This document shows positions 7,917-58,333 of a stretch of DNA of 64,000 nucleotides, in pieces; position 1 is the first letter of the stretch, and the number at the start of each line of letters is the position of its first letter. The DNA comes from an uncultured Oscillospiraceae bacterium (lineage in GTDB: Bacteria > Bacillota > Clostridia > Oscillospirales > Ruminococcaceae): assembly GCA_934462925.1 (NCBI GenBank), contig CAKSIT010000004.1, positions 133,448-197,447 on the forward strand, written 5' to 3'. A program made the translations under genes and the position numbers. Below the pieces are notes generated by a model. That model did no database searches, had not been told where the DNA came from, and saw only the letters and a program-made list of their open reading frames with translations.

Positions 7917-7940
7917 TATGGGTCACCTCGCATTTCTTTA

Positions 7941-8003
7941 TGGCAATACCGCATAATTATTTTCGCACGAAAGGCGTTTGACGTTAATTGTGCGGTGCTG
8001 CCT
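7941..8003. mobile_element. Short IS630-type MITE copy (63 bp)
   Basis: The ends TGGCAATACCGCATAATTA and TAATTGTGCGGTGCTGCCT are inverted repeats of each other and match the ends of the longer elements at 46857, 49868 and 51665. TA dinucleotides flank both sides (7939-7940 and 8004-8005). The interior is almost absent. It lies in the 5' leader of the small gene/comM transcript. Confidence 0.7.
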
Positions 8004-8008
8004 TATCT

Positions 8009-8756: not shown

Positions 8757-8767
8757 AATAAGTAAGA

Positions 8768-8956
8768 CAGACCGTCGGGAAACCCCCATACGGGGGTTTC
8801 CCGACGGGGCATCTCAGCTGCGCGCACTCATTGTCGGCACGCCGACAATTCGCACACTTGCTGAGATAAAAGAGTTTTTTGCCTCGGGAAGCCCGAGGCA
8901 AAAAAGTTATTTCAAAGCCCGCATACGCGGGCAAGATTGACTTTTTCAACAGGCTG
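8768..8956 (+). mobile_element. Structured repeat element, copy 1 (189 bp)
   Basis: Begins CAGACCGTCGGGAAA and ends TTTTTCAACAGGCTG, imperfect terminal inverted repeats. The 11-bp direct repeat AATAAGTAAGA flanks it (8757-8767 and 8957-8967). Inside are strong hairpins: GGGAAACCCCC/GGGGGTTTCCC, ATCTCAGC/GCTGAGAT enclosing a smaller one, TTGCCTCGGG/CCCGAGGCAA and GCCCGC/GCGGGC. Other copies are at 25811, 35598 and 38556. Confidence 0.85.
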
Positions 8957-8966
8957 AATAAGTAAG

Positions 8967-9010
8967 ATTCACCCTCGCGTTTTTAGTGAGGGTGAATTTC
9001 TCTCTTTTGC
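8967..9010 (+). terminator. Terminator upstream of rpoB
   Basis: Stem ATTCACCCTC / GAGGGTGAAT followed by a T-rich tail. It probably belonged to the flavoprotein gene before the repeat element was inserted between them. Confidence 0.7.
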
Positions 9011-23533: not shown

Positions 23534-23795
23534 ATAAAAAAACTCCATCTCCTTAATAAGAGATGAAGTCGTAAACTCCACGGTACCACTCTTGTTGGCT
23601 GAAAACCCGCTCTGCCACATCTGACAATGTGTTTCTCGATAACGGGAGATACCGTAGCGGCTTAATTGCCTAAGCGTTCTGCCGCTCTGCTCGGGGAGGA
23701 GTTATATCCGCGCACGACTGCCGCGCTCGCACCAAACGGCGGCTCTCTGAAAGCTCACGCATCGGACTTTGTTCCCTTCAACGCATTTGAACTAT
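23534..23795 (-). promoter_or_regulatory. T-box leader of leuA
   Basis: On the minus strand the leader carries the T-box sequence AAGAGTGGTACCGTGGA (about 23595-23579), whose core pairs with the uncharged tRNA acceptor end. It is followed by the terminator ACTTCATCTC / GAGATGGAGT and a run of T (23570-23534). Stem I occupies roughly 23790-23660. The amino acid is expected to be leucine from the gene; I could not fix the specifier codon with certainty, though a CUC lies in a suitable region near 23703. Confidence 0.9.
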
Positions 23796-24336: not shown

Positions 24337-24351
24337 ATATTCGACAAAAAC

Positions 24352-24534
24352 CTTATCAAGAGAGGCTTCTTGCTCGCAAGAGCGGGGGACTGGTCCCTGT
24401 GAAGCCCGGCAACCTATTCGCACGGCGCGCGCTTTGCGGAAAAGGTGCTACTTCCTGCGGCGGCTGTATGCTGCCGAGAGATGAGGAGTGAAGACGAAGT
24501 ACGCTCACTCCTTATGGAGTGAGTTTTTGTTTTG
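24352..24534 (+). promoter_or_regulatory. SAM-I (S-box) riboswitch of metK
   Basis: The leader contains the S-box core in order: CTTATCAAGAG, GGGGGACTGGTCCC, TGAAGCCCGGCAACC, GGTGCTACTTCC and GAGAGATGAG, which closes the first helix. It ends in the terminator CTCACTCC / GGAGTGAG and TTTTTGTTTT (24504-24534). High SAM should fold the aptamer, release the terminator and shut off SAM synthetase. Confidence 0.95.
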
Positions 24535-25786: not shown

Positions 25787-25810
25787 AGGGGGCTGTTCGC
25801 GCAGCCCCTT
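25787..25810 (+). terminator. metK terminator, upstream duplicate
   Basis: Hairpin AGGGGGCTG / CAGCCCCTT with a TTCGCG loop. The same 24 bp recur at 26000-26023, on the other side of the inserted repeat element. Confidence 0.75.
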
Positions 25811-25999
25811 CAGCTTGTTGAAAAAGTCCATTTTGCCCGCGTATGCGGGCTTTGAAATAACTTTTTTGCCTCGGGTTTCCCGAGGCAAAAAACACTTCTA
25901 TCCGCACAAGTGTGCGGTTTGGCGGCAAGCCGTCAAACCGTGCGCGTAGTGCGGATGTCCCGTCGGAAAACCCCCGTATGGGGGTATTTCGACGGTCTC
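25811..25999 (-). mobile_element. Structured repeat element, copy 2 (189 bp)
   Basis: Begins CAGCTTGTTGAAAAAGTCC and ends TTTCGACGGTCTC, in the opposite orientation to copy 1 but with the same length. It is flanked by a 24-bp direct repeat that is a complete terminator hairpin. Inner hairpins match the family: GCCCGC/GCGGGC, TTGCCTCGGG/CCCGAGGCAA, ATCCGCAC/GTGCGGAT and CCCCCGTATGGGGG. Confidence 0.85.
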
Positions 26000-26030
26000 A
26001 GGGGGCTGTTCGCGCAGCCCCTTATTTTTG
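26000..26030 (+). terminator. metK terminator, downstream duplicate
   Basis: The second copy of the 24-bp hairpin, here followed by ATTTTTG, so this one keeps the original U-run. Confidence 0.8.
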
Positions 26031-34119: not shown

Positions 34120-34683
34120 ATGTATTTATACCACTATTATGAAAGTACAGGCTTGCCGTTTGCAAATTTATCTGATTTATCGGTAAATGAAGCGAATGAT
34201 GTACTGAATAAAATAAAAAAAGATAAGCCCAATTCTCAGCACGCACAAAGACACGAAAAATATGTTGAATACAGAAGAAACTGCGAAAGCATACTTCGCA
34301 GCAGATTTATTGAAAAAGGCGGTGTTATCAAAAGAAATGTTCCTTATTATATGACTATTGAACATAGTCCTTGGTTAAGCACTTGGTTTGAGAATTCCGC
34401 ATTCATCAAAATTCCTATTGAAGAATTTGATATAAAGACATTATCATTTACATACGGTGATTCAATGCCTACATTCAGTCAGGCGATAGTGAACAAAAAA
34501 GAATATCATAATCAGCTCTACACTTATGATGAAATACTTAAAATAATTGATAAGTACGGTTTGCCGCAGAATTGGAATGATGACGGTAAATATGGATATG
34601 AGCGGTATATTGAGGTACATATCTGGAATGATTTCCCGATAAATAAATATATCAGTCTGTCGAAAAAGTCCAGCGAAAGCTAG
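34120..34683 (+). CDS. Hypothetical protein with remodelled 3' end
   Basis: A 187-residue soluble protein of unknown function, AT-rich, with GAAAGGAT upstream of the ATG. It starts with MYLYHYYESTGLPFANLSDLS and has a conserved-looking core NCESILRSRFIEKGG and YYMTIEHSPWLSTWFE. Its last dozen codons (ISLSKKSSES) are encoded by 34653-34671, which matches the terminal repeat of the structured element family (CAGTCTGTCGAAAAAGTCC). The original C-terminus has therefore probably been replaced. Confidence 0.7.
   Translation: MYLYHYYESTGLPFANLSDLSVNEANDVLNKIKKDKPNSQHAQRHEKYVEYRRNCESILRSRFIEKGGVIKRNVPYYMTIEHSPWLSTWFENSAFIKIPIEEFDIKTLSFTYGDSMPTFSQAIVNKKEYHNQLYTYDEILKIIDKYGLPQNWNDDGKYGYERYIEVHIWNDFPINKYISLSKKSSES
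34653..34671 (-). mobile_element. Remnant end of the structured repeat element
   Basis: CAGTCTGTCGAAAAAGTCC matches the start of copy 2 (25811) at 16 of 19 positions. The rest of the element is missing. It codes for the end of the upstream gene. Confidence 0.55.
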
Positions 34684-34726
34684 TCTTTTTTGCATAAATA
34701 TGATATAATAAAATGGGGTGATAAAA

Positions 34727-34822
34727 ATGCTAAGCAGAGAACAAAAAGAAAGAAACCAGAGTGAAATAATCTTTGTTGATTCAACTTTTTTACGAAATCC
34801 GAGTCTGACAAAAACACGGTAG
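34727..34822 (+). pseudogene. Truncated gene start next to the IS remnant
   Basis: A TATAAT box (34704-34709), a GGGGTGAT ribosome binding site and an ATG lead into 31 codons (MLSREQKERNQSEIIFVDST...) that run into the transposase remnant. It looks like the 5' end of a gene cut off by the insertion or a later deletion. The family is not recognised. Confidence 0.4.
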
Positions 34823-35564: not shown

Positions 35565-35597
35565 GAGAAGCCCGAGGGACAAATTCCTCGGGCTTCT
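35565..35597 (+). terminator. Terminator after thioredoxin, upstream duplicate
   Basis: Hairpin GAAGCCCGAGG / CCTCGGGCTTC with loop GACAAATT. The same 33 bp recur at 35806-35838. Confidence 0.75.
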
Positions 35598-35805
35598 CAG
35601 CTTGTCGAAAAAATCAATTTTGCCCGCGTATGCGGGCTTTGAAATCAATTTTTTTGCCTCGGGCTTCCCGAGGCAAAAAACACTTCTATCCGCGCAAGTG
35701 TGCAAGCGACGGCTTCGCCTTACGCAAGACGGCAAGCCGTCAAACCGTGCGCGCAGCGCGGATGTCCCGTCGGGAAACCCCCGTATGGGGGTTTTTCGAC
35801 GGTCT
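35598..35805 (-). mobile_element. Structured repeat element, copy 3 (208 bp)
   Basis: Begins CAGCTTGTCGAAAAA and ends TTTTTCGACGGTCT, which are inverted repeats with few mismatches. It is flanked by a 33-bp direct repeat that is an entire terminator hairpin. The middle arm is longer than in copy 2, with two sub-hairpins (CGACGGCTTCGCC region and ACGGCAAGCCGT). Confidence 0.85.
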
Positions 35806-35838
35806 GAGAAGCCCGAGGGACAAATTCCTCGGGCTTCT
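35806..35838. terminator. Terminator, downstream duplicate
   Basis: Second copy of the 33-bp hairpin. It lies 17 bases beyond the stop of the convergent UPF0210 gene and may serve that gene. Confidence 0.7.
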
Positions 35839-37643: not shown

Positions 37644-37726
37644 AATAAAAAAAGCGCCCCGAGGGATTTTTTTATGTGTATTTTTTTGCACGGGGTTATT
37701 CCACACGCGAAAGAGGACGAGATATT

Positions 37727-38620
37727 TTGCATAAGGATATGATTCCCGCAGACTGTCACACCCACTCGCTGCTGTCGCCCGACGGGCATGACGAACCCAT
37801 GATAATGGCGGCGCGAGCCTGCGGGCTGGGGATAAGACATTTTGCGATAACCGACCACATAGAAATTGATAAGCTTGACGAATGGGACTACGCGGGCGCG
37901 CTTGAAAAGTCGTTCGCGGCGTTTGCCGAAATAAAAGAGCGCTTTGCGGGCAAAATGAACGTATACTACGGCGCGGAGCTTGGCCAGCCGCTCTACGGCC
38001 TGCCGCGCGCGGAGGAGATACTTGCGCGCTATGACTTTGATTTCGTGCTGGGTTCGCAGCACCGCACAAAAAGCTACCCCTATCTCGACAAAGTGCCGAA
38101 TACGCCCGAGGACAGGCGGCGCTGCCTTGACGAGTATTTCGAGGAGGAGCTTGCGCTTGCGGAGTACGGGCGCTTCTGCTCGCTGTCGCACCTTACGTTC
38201 CCGCTGCGGTTTCTGGCGCTTCACGAGGGCGCTCAGGGCGCGCCGCTTTTCACGCGGGACATGGAGCGCTACCGCACGATAATCGACAAGATATTTGAAA
38301 CTATCATTTCAAAGGGCATAGCGCTCGAGGTAAATTCCGCGGGGATAAGAAAGGGGCTTGGCGTACCCATGCCAGCGGCGGAGTATATAGCGCGTTACCG
38401 CGCGCTCGGCGGCAGGCTTGTCACCATAGGCAGCGACGCGCACTACGAGCGCGACGTTGGCGCGGATATCCCGCAGTGCCTTGAAATGATACGCGGCGCG
38501 GGCTTTTCACAGATATGCGTGTTCTCAAAGAAAGAGCCGATATTTATTGATATCTCAGACCGTCGAAAACCCCCATACGGGGTTTTCGACGGGGGCATCC
38601 GCACTGCGCGCACGGTTTGA
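37727..38620 (+). CDS. PHP-domain histidinol-phosphatase-like protein
   Basis: A 297-residue PHP phosphoesterase. Metal ligands are visible as DCHTHSLLSPDG near the N-terminus, ITDHIEID, YYGAELG, GSQHRT, SLSHLTFP and TIGSDAHY. The family includes HisJ-type histidinol phosphatase; no other his genes are nearby, so the substrate is uncertain. A TTG at 37727 is preferred because GAGGA precedes it by nine bases; the ATG at 37739 is the alternative. The last 22 or so residues (from DISDRRKPPYG) are encoded by the inserted structured repeat element, so the native C-terminus has been replaced. Confidence 0.85.
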   Translation: MHKDMIPADCHTHSLLSPDGHDEPMIMAARACGLGIRHFAITDHIEIDKLDEWDYAGALEKSFAAFAEIKERFAGKMNVYYGAELGQPLYGLPRAEEILARYDFDFVLGSQHRTKSYPYLDKVPNTPEDRRRCLDEYFEEELALAEYGRFCSLSHLTFPLRFLALHEGAQGAPLFTRDMERYRTIIDKIFETIISKGIALEVNSAGIRKGLGVPMPAAEYIARYRALGGRLVTIGSDAHYERDVGADIPQCLEMIRGAGFSQICVFSKKEPIFIDISDRRKPPYGVFDGGIRTARTV

Positions 38621-38769
38621 CGGCACACCGTCATGCGTAAGCCATGCATAGCATGGTGTCGCTTGCACACTTGCGCGGATAGAAGATTTTTTTGCCTCGG
38701 GAAGCCCGAGGCAAAAAAGGGATTTCAAAACCTGAATACACAGGCAAATATGATTTTTTCTACAGACTG
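38556..38769 (+). mobile_element. Structured repeat element, copy 4 (about 214 bp)
   Basis: Begins CAGACCGTCGAAAAC and ends TTTTTTCTACAGACTG, flanked by the 15-bp direct repeat CGATATTTATTGATA (38538-38552 and 38770-38784). Arms are ATCCGC/GCGGAT with a long variable middle and TTGCCTCGGG/CCCGAGGCAA. The left direct repeat lies inside the PHP coding frame. Confidence 0.85.
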
Positions 38770-38808
38770 CGATATTTATTGATAATCTGAAATACGGAGG
38801 AAATTGAT

Positions 38809-46753: not shown

Positions 46754-46856
46754 TCGCAGCAGACGCATATGCAGCTGCGCCGCGCACGAAAAGGGTGTGC
46801 GGCGCGGTTTTCCATGCGCGGGGTGTGATAGCGCGGGGCTTGTCTGCATAGAATAA

Positions 46857-47031
46857 AGGCAACACCGCACAATTAGCGGCTAACGCCTTTTCCGCACGCT
46901 TGCTTGCATCTTTTCCGTCATATTGCACAATTCGTCCTAGCAAGGCATACAGCCTTGCGTCGTCCTCATTGTACAATCTGACGAAAAATCTGACTGCGCA
47001 ATCGCGCGAAAATAATTATGCGGTATTGCCT
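46857..47031. mobile_element. IS630-type MITE copy, 175 bp
   Basis: Terminal inverted repeats AAGGCAACACCGCACAATTA and TAATTATGCGGTATTGCCT. The interior carries the hairpin CAAGGC/GCCTTG within TTGCACAAT/ATTGTACAA. It is nearly identical to 51665-51839. Flanks here are AA rather than TA. It ends 64 bases before the lipoprotein start. Confidence 0.85.
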
Positions 47032-47095
47032 AAACAGGGCAGGGCGCGCCGCGTTACCGCCCGAAAACGCAAAGAGAACGAATACGGAGAACAAC

Positions 47096-49867: not shown

Positions 49868-50100
49868 AGGCAACACCGCACAAAGACCATTTATTGGATT
49901 TTGTACGTGTCTTGCTTGCATCTTTCTAGTTTGGCGCAAAAAATCACATGATTGCTCAACGGATATGTTCTGTGTTGCGCCAAACTTGCATCTTGCACAA
50001 TTCGTCCTAGCAAGGCGTCAGCCTTGCGTCGTCCTCATTGTACAATCTGACGAAAAATCTGACTGCGCAATACACGCACAATCTTTGTGCGGTATTGCCT
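49868..50100. mobile_element. IS630-type MITE copy, 233 bp
   Basis: Ends AAGGCAACACCGCACAAAGA and TCTTTGTGCGGTATTGCCT, flanked by TA on both sides. The outer bases differ from other copies in a paired way (AAAGA/TCTTT against AATTA/TAATT). An extra 60-bp palindrome, AGTTTGGCGCAA..TTGCGCCAAACT, is inserted in the left half. Confidence 0.85.
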
Positions 50101-50244
50101 TAAGTATTCTTACAATTCATTCAGCGGAATTTAATTATTTTGTCAAATCGGTTTCACATTTTTTACACAATGGGTTTATATAATTAAGTCAAAGCAAAGG
50201 AAAAGCCCGAAAAAAGGGCGTACATACAGGAAGGACTTGATTTT

Positions 50245-51627: not shown

Positions 51628-51664
51628 GTTAAGAAAATGTTCGCGAAAGATACATTTTACGTTA

Positions 51665-51839
51665 AGGCAGCACCGCACAATTAGCGGCTAACGCCTTTTC
51701 CGCACGCTTGCTTGCATCTTTTCCGTCATATTGCACAATTCGTCCTAGCAAGGCATACAGCCTTGCGTCGTCCTCATTGTACAATCTGACGAAAAATCTG
51801 ACTGCGCAATCGCGCGAAAATAATTATGCGGTATTGCCT
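51665..51839. mobile_element. IS630-type MITE copy, 175 bp
   Basis: Almost identical to 46857-47031. Ends AAGGCAGCACCGCACAATTA and TAATTATGCGGTATTGCCT, flanked by TA on both sides (51663-51664, 51840-51841). Confidence 0.88.
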
Positions 51840-51867
51840 TAATTTTTGACTTATACGGTAAAAATAA

Positions 51868-54733: not shown

Positions 54734-55996
54734 TTATTTAAAGGAGTATTCGGAGAAGTCGAAGGTTGCGAAGTAGTCCTGCGGCGTTTCCGCGCGGCGG
54801 ATAAGCTTCACGCTGCCGTCCTCGCGCAGGAGAAGCTCCGCGCTGCGCAGCTTGCCGTTGTAGTTGTAGCCCATTGAGAAGCCGTGCGCGCCCGTGTCGT
54901 GGATATAGATAAGGTCGCCGATGTCGATTTTGGGCAGGCTTCTGTCCTTTGCGAACTTGTCGCAGTTCTCGCACAGACCGCCTACTACGTCGTAAACGTG
55001 GTCGCAGGGCGCGTTCTCCTTTCCAAGAACGGTGATGTGGTGGTACGCGCCGTATATAGCGGGACGCATGAGGTTCGCTGCGCACGCGTCAACGCCGATG
55101 TATTCCTTGTAGATGTGCTTTTCGCGGATAGCCCTTGTAACGAGCGCGCCGTAGGGCGCGAGCATGAATCGCCCAAGCTCCGTAAAGAGCGCCACGTTCC
55201 CCATGCCCGCGGGAACGAGTATCTCCTCGTACGCCTCGCGGACCTTTTCGCCGATAACTGCAATGTCGTTCTGGCGGTCTGCGGGGGTGTAGTCAACGCC
55301 CACGCCGCCGCTCAGGTTTATGAAGCTAAGCTCCACGCCCGCCTTTTCCTTAATCTCCACAGCCGCCCTGAACAGAATGCGCGCAAGGGTGGGGTAGTAG
55401 TCGTTGGTGAGCGTGTTCGAGGCGAGGAACGAGTGCATTCCGAACACCTTTGCGCCCTTTTGCTTGAGTATTCTGTAGCCCTCGATTATCTGGTCGTGCG
55501 TGAAGCCGTACTTTGCGTCGCGCGGCGTGTCCATAACGTTGGCGCTGCCGTCCGTCTTGAACTCCCCGCCGGGGTTGTAGCGGCAGCATATTGTTTCGGG
55601 GATTCCCGTGAGCTTGTCGAGAACGTCTATGTGCGTGAAGTCGTCAAGGTTGATTATAGCGCCCAGCTTGTACGCTTCCTTAAAGTCAAGGTCGGGCGTT
55701 TCGTTTGAGGAAAACATGATGTCATGCTGCTTTGCGCCTACCTTGTCGGACAGTAAAAGCTCGGTGTAGCTCGAGCAGTCAAAGCCGCAGCCCTCCTCGC
55801 GCAAAACCTGCATTATAAACGGGTTCGGCGTAGCCTTTACCGCAAAGTACTCGCGGAAGCCCTTGTTCCACGCGAACGCCGCCTTAAGTCTGCGCGCGTT
55901 TTCGCGTATGCCCTTTTCGTCGTAAATGTGGAACGGCGTGGGGTAGGCGAGCGCTGTCTGCTCCGCCTGCTCCTTTGTGATAAACGGTTTTTTCAT
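54734..55996 (-). CDS. lysA: Diaminopimelate decarboxylase-type enzyme
   Basis: A 420-residue fold-type III PLP enzyme that makes lysine from meso-diaminopimelate. The PLP lysine is Lys54 in EYFAVKATPNP. GMHSFLASN, SGGVGVDY, FTELGRFMLAP and the partner-subunit active-site GGLCENCDKF are present, as is a late HDTGAHGFSMGYNYN. It is last in the operon after the esterase and two membrane-protein copies. The first 11 codons (MKKPFITKEQA) also occur at the start of the duplicated membrane-protein gene. No other lysine genes are in the window. Confidence 0.93.
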   Translation of the reverse strand: MKKPFITKEQAEQTALAYPTPFHIYDEKGIRENARRLKAAFAWNKGFREYFAVKATPNPFIMQVLREEGCGFDCSSYTELLLSDKVGAKQHDIMFSSNETPDLDFKEAYKLGAIINLDDFTHIDVLDKLTGIPETICCRYNPGGEFKTDGSANVMDTPRDAKYGFTHDQIIEGYRILKQKGAKVFGMHSFLASNTLTNDYYPTLARILFRAAVEIKEKAGVELSFINLSGGVGVDYTPADRQNDIAVIGEKVREAYEEILVPAGMGNVALFTELGRFMLAPYGALVTRAIREKHIYKEYIGVDACAANLMRPAIYGAYHHITVLGKENAPCDHVYDVVGGLCENCDKFAKDRSLPKIDIGDLIYIHDTGAHGFSMGYNYNGKLRSAELLLREDGSVKLIRRAETPQDYFATFDFSEYSFK

Positions 55997-56029
55997 GGTT
56001 ATCGTCCTTTCTGTTGTCTTATATATCTC

Positions 56030-56389
56030 TTAGATTATCGGCAGCGACAGCGCGAACAGCGCCGCCGTAAAAACAGCCTTTGCAATAATAAACGCGCGCC
56101 TTGTCGTGCGGAATACCTTTTCGGAGATACGCTCGGGCTTGCTGAATATGTTGGTGTGCTGCGGGTAAACCGAACACAGCGAGAACACGCCGTTGATTAT
56201 AAGCAGCACCACAAGCAGTATGATGTTGCCGCCGTCCGTAATCTGAAGCGCCGTCATAACTATCATAGCCGCCGCAATGCACGCGGCGAACGCTGCGCAA
56301 AGTATCTCGGCGAGTCTTTCGCCCTTAGTGTAGCTCAGCTTGTCGGGGACGGTCATGGCCTGCTCCTTTGTGATAAACGGTTTTTTCAT
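56030..56389 (-). CDS. Duplicated small membrane protein with lysA leader
   Basis: A 119-residue product whose first 11 residues, MKKPFITKEQA, are the start of lysA and whose remaining 108 are the small membrane protein of the upstream copy, with one change (GERLAE for GEKLAE). It has a copy of the lysA ribosome binding site (AGAAAGGACG). Translation may start at the lysA ATG or at the internal ATG of MTVPDKL. Three membrane helices. It sits 33 bases before lysA. A recent duplication product. Confidence 0.75.
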   Translation of the reverse strand: MKKPFITKEQAMTVPDKLSYTKGERLAEILCAAFAACIAAAMIVMTALQITDGGNIILLVVLLIINGVFSLCSVYPQHTNIFSKPERISEKVFRTTRRAFIIAKAVFTAALFALSLPII

Positions 56390-56422
56390 GGTTATCGTCC
56401 TTTCTGTTGTCTTATATATCTC

Positions 56423-56749
56423 TTAGATTATCGGCAGCGACAGCGCGAACAGCGCCGCCGTAAAAACAGCCTTTGCAATAATAAACGCGCGCCTTGTCGT
56501 GCGGAATACCTTTTCGGAGATACGCTCGGGCTTGCTGAATATGTTGGTGTGCTGCGGGTAAACCGAACACAGCGAGAACACGCCGTTGATTATAAGCAGC
56601 ACCACAAGCAGTATGATGTTGCCGCCGTCCGTAATCTGAAGCGCCGTCATAACTATCATAGCCGCCGCAATGCACGCGGCGAACGCTGCGCAAAGTATCT
56701 CGGCGAGCTTTTCGCCCTTAGTGTAGCTCAGCTTGTCGGGGACGGTCAT
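56423..56749 (-). CDS. Small three-helix membrane protein
   Basis: A 108-residue membrane protein. Hydrophobic segments are LCAAFAACIAAAMIVMTAL, NIILLVVLLIINGVFSLC and AFIIAKAVFTAALFALSL; basic residues (FRTTRRAF) lie between the second and third. RBS AGAAAGGAG precedes the ATG. This is the parental copy of the duplication. Family not recognised. It lies 21 bases after the esterase gene. Confidence 0.75.
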   Translation of the reverse strand: MTVPDKLSYTKGEKLAEILCAAFAACIAAAMIVMTALQITDGGNIILLVVLLIINGVFSLCSVYPQHTNIFSKPERISEKVFRTTRRAFIIAKAVFTAALFALSLPII

Positions 56750-56770: not shown

Positions 56771-57580
56771 TTACACGTTCATGTATTTCGCAAGGAACTC
56801 AACGGAAAGCTCTATCCAGCGCCTTACGCCGGGGCGCAGGTAGTCCTCGTTCCAGCCCGTGGACTTGTCGCACGTGGAGATTCCGTGCGGTCCTTCGTCG
56901 AACAGGTGCAGCTCCACGGGTACTTTGTTTGAGATACACGCCTTTGCCATAACGAGCGAGTTGTGCGCGGACACGCAGCCGTCGTTCGCGGTGTGCCATA
57001 TAAATATGGGGGGAGTTTTCGGGGTAACGCGGTTTTCAAGCGACAGGCGCGACAGGTCGCTGCGGCTTGCCTCGTCGCCCAGCAGCACATGGAAGCTGCC
57101 CTCGTGCGGGGCGGTAACGCCGCTTATAACGGGGTAGCAGAGAACCGCGGCGTTGGGGCGCAGCTCGTCCGCCTCGCAGCCTATGGCCTTTACAATGGAG
57201 ATGTCGCTCCACATGGTCGCAAGGCAGCCCGCGAGGTGTCCGCCGGCGGAGCAGCCGAGAACCGCTATCTTCTGCGGGTCAACGCCGAACTCGTCGGCGC
57301 GCGCGCGTATCTTGTAGAACGTGTACGCCGCGTCCATAAGCGAAGCGGGGAACTTTGCGTTGCAGGTGTAGGTGACGACGAACGCCGCATAGCCCGCAGC
57401 GAGGTATTGCAGCGCTATCGGCTCGCCCTCGCGGTCGGAGCAGTATTCGTAGCCGCCGCCCGGGAAGATGATGATAGCGGGGCGTTTTTCGCAGTATTCA
57501 AGCCCTGCGGTCTTGTCGGGGAGATATGCCTTTACGCTGGCGGACTTGTCAGCGTTGATGAATAGGGTCTTTATAGTCAT
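56771..57580 (-). CDS. Alpha/beta hydrolase, acetylesterase type
   Basis: A 269-residue intracellular esterase. The oxyanion loop IIFPGGGYEYCSDREGE (about 37-53) and the nucleophile Ser111 in GCSAGGHLAG place it with BD-FAE/acetyl-xylan esterase-like hydrolases. The acid residue is probably in HTANDGCVS and the histidine in GPHGIS. No signal peptide, so the substrate enters the cell, for example acetylated oligosaccharides. First gene of the operon; its promoter is about 450 bases upstream, beyond the tandem array. Confidence 0.88.
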   Translation of the reverse strand: MTIKTLFINADKSASVKAYLPDKTAGLEYCEKRPAIIIFPGGGYEYCSDREGEPIALQYLAAGYAAFVVTYTCNAKFPASLMDAAYTFYKIRARADEFGVDPQKIAVLGCSAGGHLAGCLATMWSDISIVKAIGCEADELRPNAAVLCYPVISGVTAPHEGSFHVLLGDEASRSDLSRLSLENRVTPKTPPIFIWHTANDGCVSAHNSLVMAKACISNKVPVELHLFDEGPHGISTCDKSTGWNEDYLRPGVRRWIELSVEFLAKYMNV

Positions 57581-57625
57581 GTGATGTCCTCCTCACCTGT
57601 ATTGCGTTAAGCGGAGCGCCGCGCT

Positions 57626-58016
57626 GCGCAAACCGAAGGTGTCGCGTTGCGTAAGCCGAAGGTGTCGCGTTGCGTAAGCCGAAGGCGTCGCGCTGCGTAA
57701 GCCGAAGGCGTCGCGTTGCGTAAGCCGAAGGCGTCGCGTTGCGTAAGCCGAAGGTGTCGCGCTGCGTAAACCGAAGGCGTCGCGTTGCGTAAGCCGAAGG
57801 TGTCGCGTTGCGTAAGCCGAAGGCGTCGCGTTGCGTAAGCCGAAGGCGTCGCGTTGCGTAAGCCGAAGGTGTCGCGTTGCGTAAGCCGAAGGCGTCGCGC
57901 TGCGTAAGCCGAAGGTGTCGCGTTGCGTAAGCCGAAGGCGTCGCGCTGCGTAAGCCGAAGGCGTCGCGTTGCGTAAACCGAAGGTGTCGCGTTGCGTAAG
58001 CCGAAGGCGTCGCGTG
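57626..58016. repeat. Tandem array of 23-bp units (17 copies)
   Basis: Seventeen head-to-tail 23-bp units with no spacers. The unit contains GCGTAAGCCGAAGGCG and then TCGCGTT. It varies at three positions only: G/A in TAAGCC, C/T in AGGCGT and T/C in CGCGTT. Each unit can pair GCG-GCC-GAA-GGC-CGC. A degenerate unit precedes it (57604-57625). The array lies between a minus-strand promoter and the esterase gene. Confidence 0.93.
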
Positions 58017-58027
58017 TGCTCACTATT

Positions 58028-58056
58028 ATTTTAGCATTTTCCCGCGCATAAATCAA
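58028..58056 (-). promoter_or_regulatory. Promoter of the esterase-lysA operon
   Basis: TTGATT (58056-58051), 17 bases, TAAAAT (58033-58028) on the minus strand. Transcription would start right at the edge of the tandem array. Confidence 0.65.
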
Positions 58057-58333
58057 GGGGAAAAGGACAATTTTTCATATGTTTCGCGTACGCGCCAGCT
58101 TTTTAAGCGCGTAACGCCCGCGGACTTGCATAGTCTTATGTTAAAGAAGACGTCCGCGCGTTGCGCGCGGGCTTGCAAATATCTCCAAAAAAAGGCATTG
58201 AAATGAAAGTTTTCTGTTTTGACTATTTATGCTCCCGCACACTTTTCTGTGTGCTTTTCACAAAAAGTACTATGCAAATCTGTGAATAGAATACAAAATT
58301 AGGGGGTGCAGATGAAAATAATATAAAAAAAAC

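Follow-up and report, generated by a model that had tools for sequence, protein, structure and literature searches.

The four copies of a small repeated element in the window, the whole 64,000-nucleotide stretch of DNA analysed here, are very probably MITEs mobilised in trans by a DDE transposase of the IS1182 family that comes from a single clade and would duplicate the hairpins that serve as its targets. The elements form a new MITE family within the IS1182 family. The length of their target duplications is variable because most of these repeats are whole hairpins, mainly terminators, that were duplicated complete.

Element copies in the window

The copies c1 to c4 (Table 1) carry imperfect terminal inverted repeats and have one order of hairpins in common, as the preliminary description of this DNA had stated, and the direct repeats that it gave for c1, c2, c3 and c4 (11, 24, 33 and 15 bp) were reproduced. 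It had also found no ORF inside the element. This agrees with the length of the copies, which is 189–214 bp (about 190–215 bp) and leaves room for at most 71 codons, too few for a transposase. The copies score 143–188 bits (E 4e-37 to 3e-49) with a covariance model trained on a set to which c1–c4 themselves belong. When up to two mismatches are allowed, the end motif has 10 matches in the window (shuffled sequence: mean 1.07, maximum 4), which comprise seven ends of c1–c4, the end of an IS1182-type fossil at 34652, and two unrelated matches. The remaining end, on the right of c1, has diverged beyond the motif. A decayed transposase start comes after the left end of the fossil.

The element proper is CAG...CTG. 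The T and A just outside these ends differ according to the flanking repeat, and the T in TCAG is target sequence, as it changes together with that repeat in the loci L166 and L167. The repeat of c3 is 33 bp as written and 32 bp with these ends, one matching base then being part of the element, and the repeat of c4 is 15 bp if taken as exact and 18/19 bp if one inserted base is allowed. The repeats of c2, c3 and c4 are themselves inverted repeats, that of c4 being a weak one. The repeat of c1 is not an inverted repeat; it abuts a terminator-like one. At c4, the reading frame of the PHP-domain gene (37676–38620) continues into the element to 38620, and in the relative L008 this frame ends after IFIKI.

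Table 1. Coordinates of the element copies, their target duplications and further features of the window
Feature	Position	Strand	Remarks
Element copy c1	8768..8956	-	Covariance model 181.9 bits
Element copy c2	25811..25999	+	29 bp downstream of metK; covariance model 188.3 bits
Element copy c3	35598..35806	+	Covariance model 167.2 bits
Element copy c4	38556..38769	-	3' end of PHP-domain gene; covariance model 143.3 bits
c1 target duplication, copy 1	8757..8767		11 bp, no hairpin
c1 target duplication, copy 2	8957..8967		Followed by inverted repeat with arms 8967-8976 and 8988-8997
c2 target duplication, copy 1	25787..25810		24 bp, complete hairpin
c2 target duplication, copy 2	26000..26023		Same hairpin as copy 1, followed by T-rich run
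c3 target duplication, copy 1	35566..35597		32 bp, complete hairpin, preceded by A-run
c3 target duplication, copy 2	35807..35838
c4 target duplication, copy 1	38538..38555		18 bp, GATAT-TTATTG-ATATC inverted repeat
c4 target duplication, copy 2	38770..38788		19 bp, one extra A
IS1182-type fossil left end	34652..34729	+	78 bp with intact end repeat; 87% to the IS in L234
T-box leader	23556-23790	-	Rfam, above cut-off
SAM riboswitch	24350-24487	+	Precedes metK; Rfam, above cut-off

Other repeats occur in the window. Another family of small repeats, whose ends resemble TTAAGGCAATACCGCA, is found at 7938–8005, 46856–47034, 49989–50108 and 51664–51842, and letters resembling it follow metK in the relative L264. 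An array of 23-bp tandem repeats occupies 57524–58107, and 55965–56264 and 56358–56657 are an identical 300-bp direct duplication (393 bp from start to start).

Hairpins as target duplications

Relatives were located via the neighbouring DUF711 gene, and the nearest (L001–L010) share 87–91% of the DUF711 protein. Within the genus of the genome G008, the element is present in 10 of 43 genomes (E <= 1e-6); copy numbers are lower bounds, because a limited number of candidates was scored in each genome. The end pattern TCAGNYTGTCGAAAAA matched nine of 10 chosen carrier genomes; its reversed control matched none of the 10. From the window and related genomes, a set of 103 sites was compiled (87 MITE and 16 IS sites), from which chance end pairs in L001–L080, eight false pairs and duplicates had been removed and to which 20 sites had been added by hand.

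A direct repeat flanks the element at 82 of the 103 sites, and in 76 of these 82 it is a hairpin by a stem test with fixed criteria (64 of 69 MITE and 12 of 13 IS repeats). Shuffled repeats passed the same test 1.36 times on average (maximum 5), and windows displaced by 60–140 bp in 3 of 246 cases. Repeat length ranges from 8 to 39 bp. Six repeat pairs failed the stem test (c1, c4, L120, L125, L200 and L244), c4 through a 1-nt indel that cuts the repeat short; the repeat at L244, an IS, has 8 bp and no hairpin. Among the 21 sites that lack a direct repeat, hairpins abut the element on both sides at 9, on one side at 10 and on neither at 2, compared with 20 of 368 random positions that abut a hairpin. 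At most sites, the target duplications are whole hairpins of about 17–39 bp, usually with the T-run of a terminator, for MITEs and IS elements alike.

One alternative is that terminators are chosen for another cause, for example supercoiling or a paused polymerase, and that the hairpin is merely correlated with the cut sites. The terminator-like T-run on one side of 73 of the 76 target hairpins is in line with this idea. A cut that is blind to the hairpin would, however, be expected to give a fixed length, whereas 75 of 82 repeats are 21–35 bp long, and of the 76 hairpin repeats 58 begin and end no more than 3 nt from the stem feet and 66 no more than 5 nt. Moreover, c4 copies a weak inverted repeat situated where a coding region ends. 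This alternative is therefore unlikely, and duplication of the hairpin as such is the preferred reading. At the 5' foot, the best stem reaches outside the duplication in 47 of the 76 cases and ends inside it in 13. The cut would thus lie near the foot and not exactly at it.

It is very unlikely that the target hairpin was replaced and that the second hairpin came by conversion from another site. IS1272 and TnSha1 do delete or replace their target hairpins (PMC5678879, PMC4923244), and the two sides carry different hairpins at L189, L237, L239 and L242. Most copies, however, have an identical, site-specific hairpin on both sides, and two different hairpins are what recombination between two copies would leave. 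IS1272-type replacement was also rejected for the set as a whole, given its 82 sites with direct repeats and the 76 hairpins among them.

A full-length IS1182 partner

A search for partner transposases by PF13751 led to the locus L131 in genome G005. This 1.53-kb element has the ends TCAGCCTGTCGAAAAA and TCAGTCTGTCGAAAAA and is flanked by a 21-bp hairpin repeat. Its 432-aa ORF, in which the transposase start is in a different frame from the rest, scores 325.4 bits against the NCBIfam IS1182 model NF033551 (cut-off 270). The ends of the MITEs match those of L131 and of another IS element, L234. Thus, a full-length element with the same ends and a transposase, which the preliminary description had proposed to look for, exists and belongs to the IS1182 family.

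This result overturns the link to IS1634 drawn in that description, which had suggested an IS1634-type MITE with loosely staggered target duplications of variable length. IS1634 elements make long variable duplications, and the long variable flanks noted earlier are indeed present, but the cause differs, because their length is mostly that of the target hairpin. In addition, the transposase between the matching ends is IS1182 by a curated cut-off and reaches 18.5 bits with the IS1634 model (cut-off 100). Membership in the IS1634 family was rejected on this score, and an IS1634-type origin is highly improbable.

Strong relatives of the IS1182 transposase were found in 14 of 347 genomes of the family, at 19 loci. 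Hairpin repeats flank 10 of these (L234, L235, L236, L238, L241, L245, L248, L250, L251 and L252), a different hairpin lies on each side of three (L237, L239 and L242), one has the 8-bp repeat mentioned above (L244), and five are without an assigned outcome (L240, L243, L246, L247 and L249). The IS1182 element L227, which was found in the genus, has a hairpin repeat too. No match to the IS1182 transposase was obtained in the copy-rich genomes G021, G025, G026 and G028, and G024 contains a fragment of it only. MAG assemblies often lose repeats. The shared IS1182 ends, the shortness of the copies, the lack of a transposase gene, the target duplications and the empty site at c4 (see below) together place the family, as far as sequence comparison can, among the MITEs of IS1182.

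Empty sites in relatives

The copy c4 has a PHP-domain gene on one side and an Lrp/AsnC gene on the other. In all seven loci of L001–L010 that have both genes adjacent (L001, L003, L004, L005, L006, L008 and L010, with L002, L007 and L009 outside the comparison), this junction is without the element, and the gap between the genes is 15–149 bp. The empty junction and the site-specific direct repeats support what the preliminary description had concluded, namely separate insertions of a non-autonomous mobile family. A blastn search with c1–c4 against L001–L080 gave no match at E <= 1e-3.

At the site of c2, inspection by eye of the loci listed revealed one terminator after metK, not two, in L254, L256, L257, L260, L262 and L268 (L263 is masked at that position). 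In G021, an independent element has inserted into the metK terminator and has its own hairpin repeat (L158/L258). At the same terminator in G002, L255 shows what appears to be another element with CAG-type ends, a third occupant across the genus. The region before rpoB in relatives did not align at the site of c1, and the left neighbour of c3 is not syntenic in relatives.

Hairpin duplication among IS1182 transposases of Bacillota

An IS1182 transposase (E <= 1e-60) was found in 74 of 348 Bacillota genomes, and the repeats were surveyed at 30 loci among the matches listed. Clear hairpin repeats of 19–35 bp occur at eight of these (L331, L332, L334, L335, L336, L343, L357 and L359), and L347 has a 13-bp hairpin repeat with a 5-bp stem. 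Repeats of 9 bp flank L351, L356 and L358, and the remaining loci have short repeats or none. A hairpin repeat seen at the single locus L355 in G997 was not confirmed by alignment of several copies; the IS1182 copies L377–L379 of this genome lie between ACGT and ACGT, inside a longer shared repeat.

The ends were set by alignment in a comparison of 40 copies from 14 genomes, with two or three copies each. All 14 copies from five genomes (G805, G1099, G967, G906 and G790) have hairpin repeats of 17–35 bp, and no repeat longer than 6 bp was found at the 26 copies from nine genomes (G916, G1102, G1038, G970, G997, G946, G856, G921 and G861). The elements of G997 and G946 begin with CAGNCTGT (CAG) and yet have no hairpin repeat. 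Thus, the clade of the transposase predicts the outcome and the end letters do not; the end letters alone were ruled out as a predictor by these two genomes, which are both on the no-repeat side of the tree.

A first tree contained 30 hand-chosen rows, namely 18 of the 30 Bacillota loci, eight of the 19 family loci, L227 and three fetched copies; the long branches of L380 and L383 were flagged. The rows with hairpin repeats and two rows with two different hairpins form one group (support 100/99). With strict labels, the hairpin rows need three changes, because the two different-hairpin rows sit among them. A second tree of 39 hand-chosen rows included 11 added rows of unassigned or recombined status and left out L252 and L383. 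Here, 14 hairpin rows and two two-hairpin rows, the latter counted with the hairpin group, are on one side of a branch (100/98), nine no-repeat rows including G997 are on another branch (100/98), and the 9-bp rows cluster together (100/100). Of the 11 added rows, six are placed among the hairpin rows and the other five among the no-repeat rows. This tree was rooted by midpoint, and the root does not set the order of the repeat states; L341, L353, L355 and G861 are in neither tree. Among the rows treed, the transposases that appear to duplicate hairpins are thus confined to one side of a branch.

Plasmids were surveyed at six loci chosen from 25 among the matches listed (1998 records matched). 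Exact hairpin repeats occur at two of the six (NZ_CP082921.1 and NZ_CP133765.1), two have different hairpins on the two sides as judged by eye (NZ_CP040675.1 and NZ_CP133764.1), and the other two are without resolved ends.

Structure inside the element

A consensus structure of 43 base pairs was derived from 66 aligned copies, and 97.5% of its cells pair. Two-sided compensatory change occurs at 25 of the 43 base pairs. The number of cells with two-sided change is 238, compared with 56 in shuffles, a comparison that is not a probability because the copies are related, and with 20–48 in slid controls, over which the structure is favoured by its derivation from the same alignment. In the orientation of c3, 283 GU cells contrast with 16 AC cells, and 61 with 16 if the four columns in which GU is commonest are left out. 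Of the two strands, the one in this orientation gives the more stable predicted RNA in 66 of 66 copies. The GU excess and the stability bias point to a structure that is used on one strand, as RNA or single-stranded DNA.

A role of the internal structure as RNA is possible in view of the compensatory changes and the one-strand wobble bias. Alternatively, the compensatory change could be mutational and stem from hairpin-templated repair; within each of the repeat pairs L109 and L199, one hairpin copy departs from the other by a compensatory change of a base pair. The covarying internal stems and the wobble bias would also suit DNA that is not mobile, namely an RNA gene or a cis element recurring between terminators, but the site-specific direct repeats, the empty c4 site and the IS elements with matching ends make this explanation scarcely tenable. 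An RNA role can hold in addition to mobility.

The core of the structure is not invariant: a compensated swap from G-C to C-G occurs in 17 of 73 copies (counted among 87 matching elements). G151, a genome of the same family but outside the 43 genomes of the genus, contains the core CTAT-stem-AAGTGTG-hairpin-TGCGCGCAG-stem' at three places in a similar setting and with different stem letters. The G151 loci L315, L318, L320 and L325 share architecture and core, with the core of L320 off by one letter, and L315 has a hairpin target repeat by eye. The pattern CTAT...AAGTGTG...GCGCGC, which misses the copies of G008 itself, matched two of 347 genomes (G151 at three places, G188 at one) and one of 391 (G707); its reversed control matched four genomes in each of the two sets. 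The matches in G188 and G707 look like chance and were discarded, as the element architecture is seen at the three G151 places only. Distant model matches in G305 have, as judged by eye, similar ends and repeated hairpins, without the core pattern.

The internal hairpin H2 was considered and rejected as a bidirectional terminator, since the T-run precedes the stem and the A-run follows it. Readout of the RNA from the upstream gene was not supported: relative to the terminator, the element has the same orientation in 14 cases, the opposite one in 17, and an ambiguous one in 33. An internal 29-base hairpin pattern had no exact match in the genome collection, and phage and plasmid records gave no match to c3. 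Rfam assigned no family to c1–c4 at the gathering cut-off (best sub-threshold E 0.033, on c3), and the two gathering-level matches in the window, the T-box leader and the SAM riboswitch, are outside the copies.

Proposed mechanism and significance

A DDE transposase joins the two 3' ends of its element to opposite target strands, and the spacing of the joins is the length of the duplication. In the mechanism envisaged here, a transposase of the partner clade, whose elements carry ends like CAGNYTGTNGANAAA, would recognise a folded hairpin, either as an extruded cruciform or as a hairpin on single-stranded DNA. Each of the two strands would then receive a 3' end of the element close to a 5' foot of the stem. 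These feet would lie side by side in space, although the length of a hairpin separates them in sequence, and gap repair would therefore copy the whole hairpin on both sides. An insertion that meets no hairpin may produce a conventional short duplication of some 8–11 bp, as at c1 and L244. The upstream gene would retain an adjacent terminator, and insertion is thus likely to cost the host little.

A broader proposal is made tentatively and is itself rather doubtful: an IS1182 clade of the Bacillota may read hairpin shape, copy the whole hairpin and colonise terminators without breaking them, and the one-strand structure of the MITE (CUAU-stem-AAGUGUG-hairpin-UGCGCGCAG-stem'), kept with other stem letters outside the genus, might act as RNA, perhaps in expression or transposition.

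For the IS1182 catalogue entry, with its direct repeats of 2–60 bp, these data would provide a rule, namely that the repeat made by one clade is its target hairpin. They offer many natural examples of a strand-transfer geometry that has been proposed for relatives of IS1272. As sister groups of one transposase family duplicate the hairpin or do not, this geometry becomes accessible to domain swaps and structural work. The pattern also suggests a low-harm route for transposons, in which the terminator that is entered ends up on both flanks of the insertion. In annotation, a pair of identical terminator hairpins spaced by about 190–220 bp or 1.5 kb would be a search signal for such elements.

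Comparison with known systems

IS1272 and TnSha1 have, like the partner described here, an IS1182-family transposase and hairpin targets. In the parts of the two reports considered here, these targets lack a sequence consensus and several are terminators (PMC4923244, PMC5678879), most targets of IS1272 were replaced, and three of its copies are listed with non-hairpin targets (PMC5678879). Both elements partially delete the hairpin without duplicating it (PMC4923244), whereas the family in the window duplicates the whole hairpin. Duplication of a whole hairpin is drawn as a possibility, pathway b, in a published model of transposition (PMC5678879); the geometry is the same, but what is possible there is the usual outcome in one clade here. 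A literature search of limited reach found no paper that documents such duplication.

Direct repeats of the IS1182 family are quoted as 2–60 bp (PMC7335449), and some members are quoted as targeting palindromes (PMC4923244, PMC5678879). In the passages that cite it, the ISfinder catalogue of the family ties repeat length neither to hairpin length nor to a clade. The IS1182-related MITEs of Methanosarcina acetivorans (ISMac2; PMC3852290) are likewise short and non-autonomous, and the last entries of the two table rows for them, 4 and 0, are taken here as direct-repeat sizes. BOX, RUP and SPRITE of pneumococci and QMITE of Coxiella are likewise small structured repeats, and some Coxiella sRNAs derive from QMITEs (PMC10969869). 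These repeats differ in their hosts, however, and IS1182 is absent from the main text of that paper. The kind of element found in the window is thus known, and the new part is the rule by which the target is copied, together with the clade that follows it.
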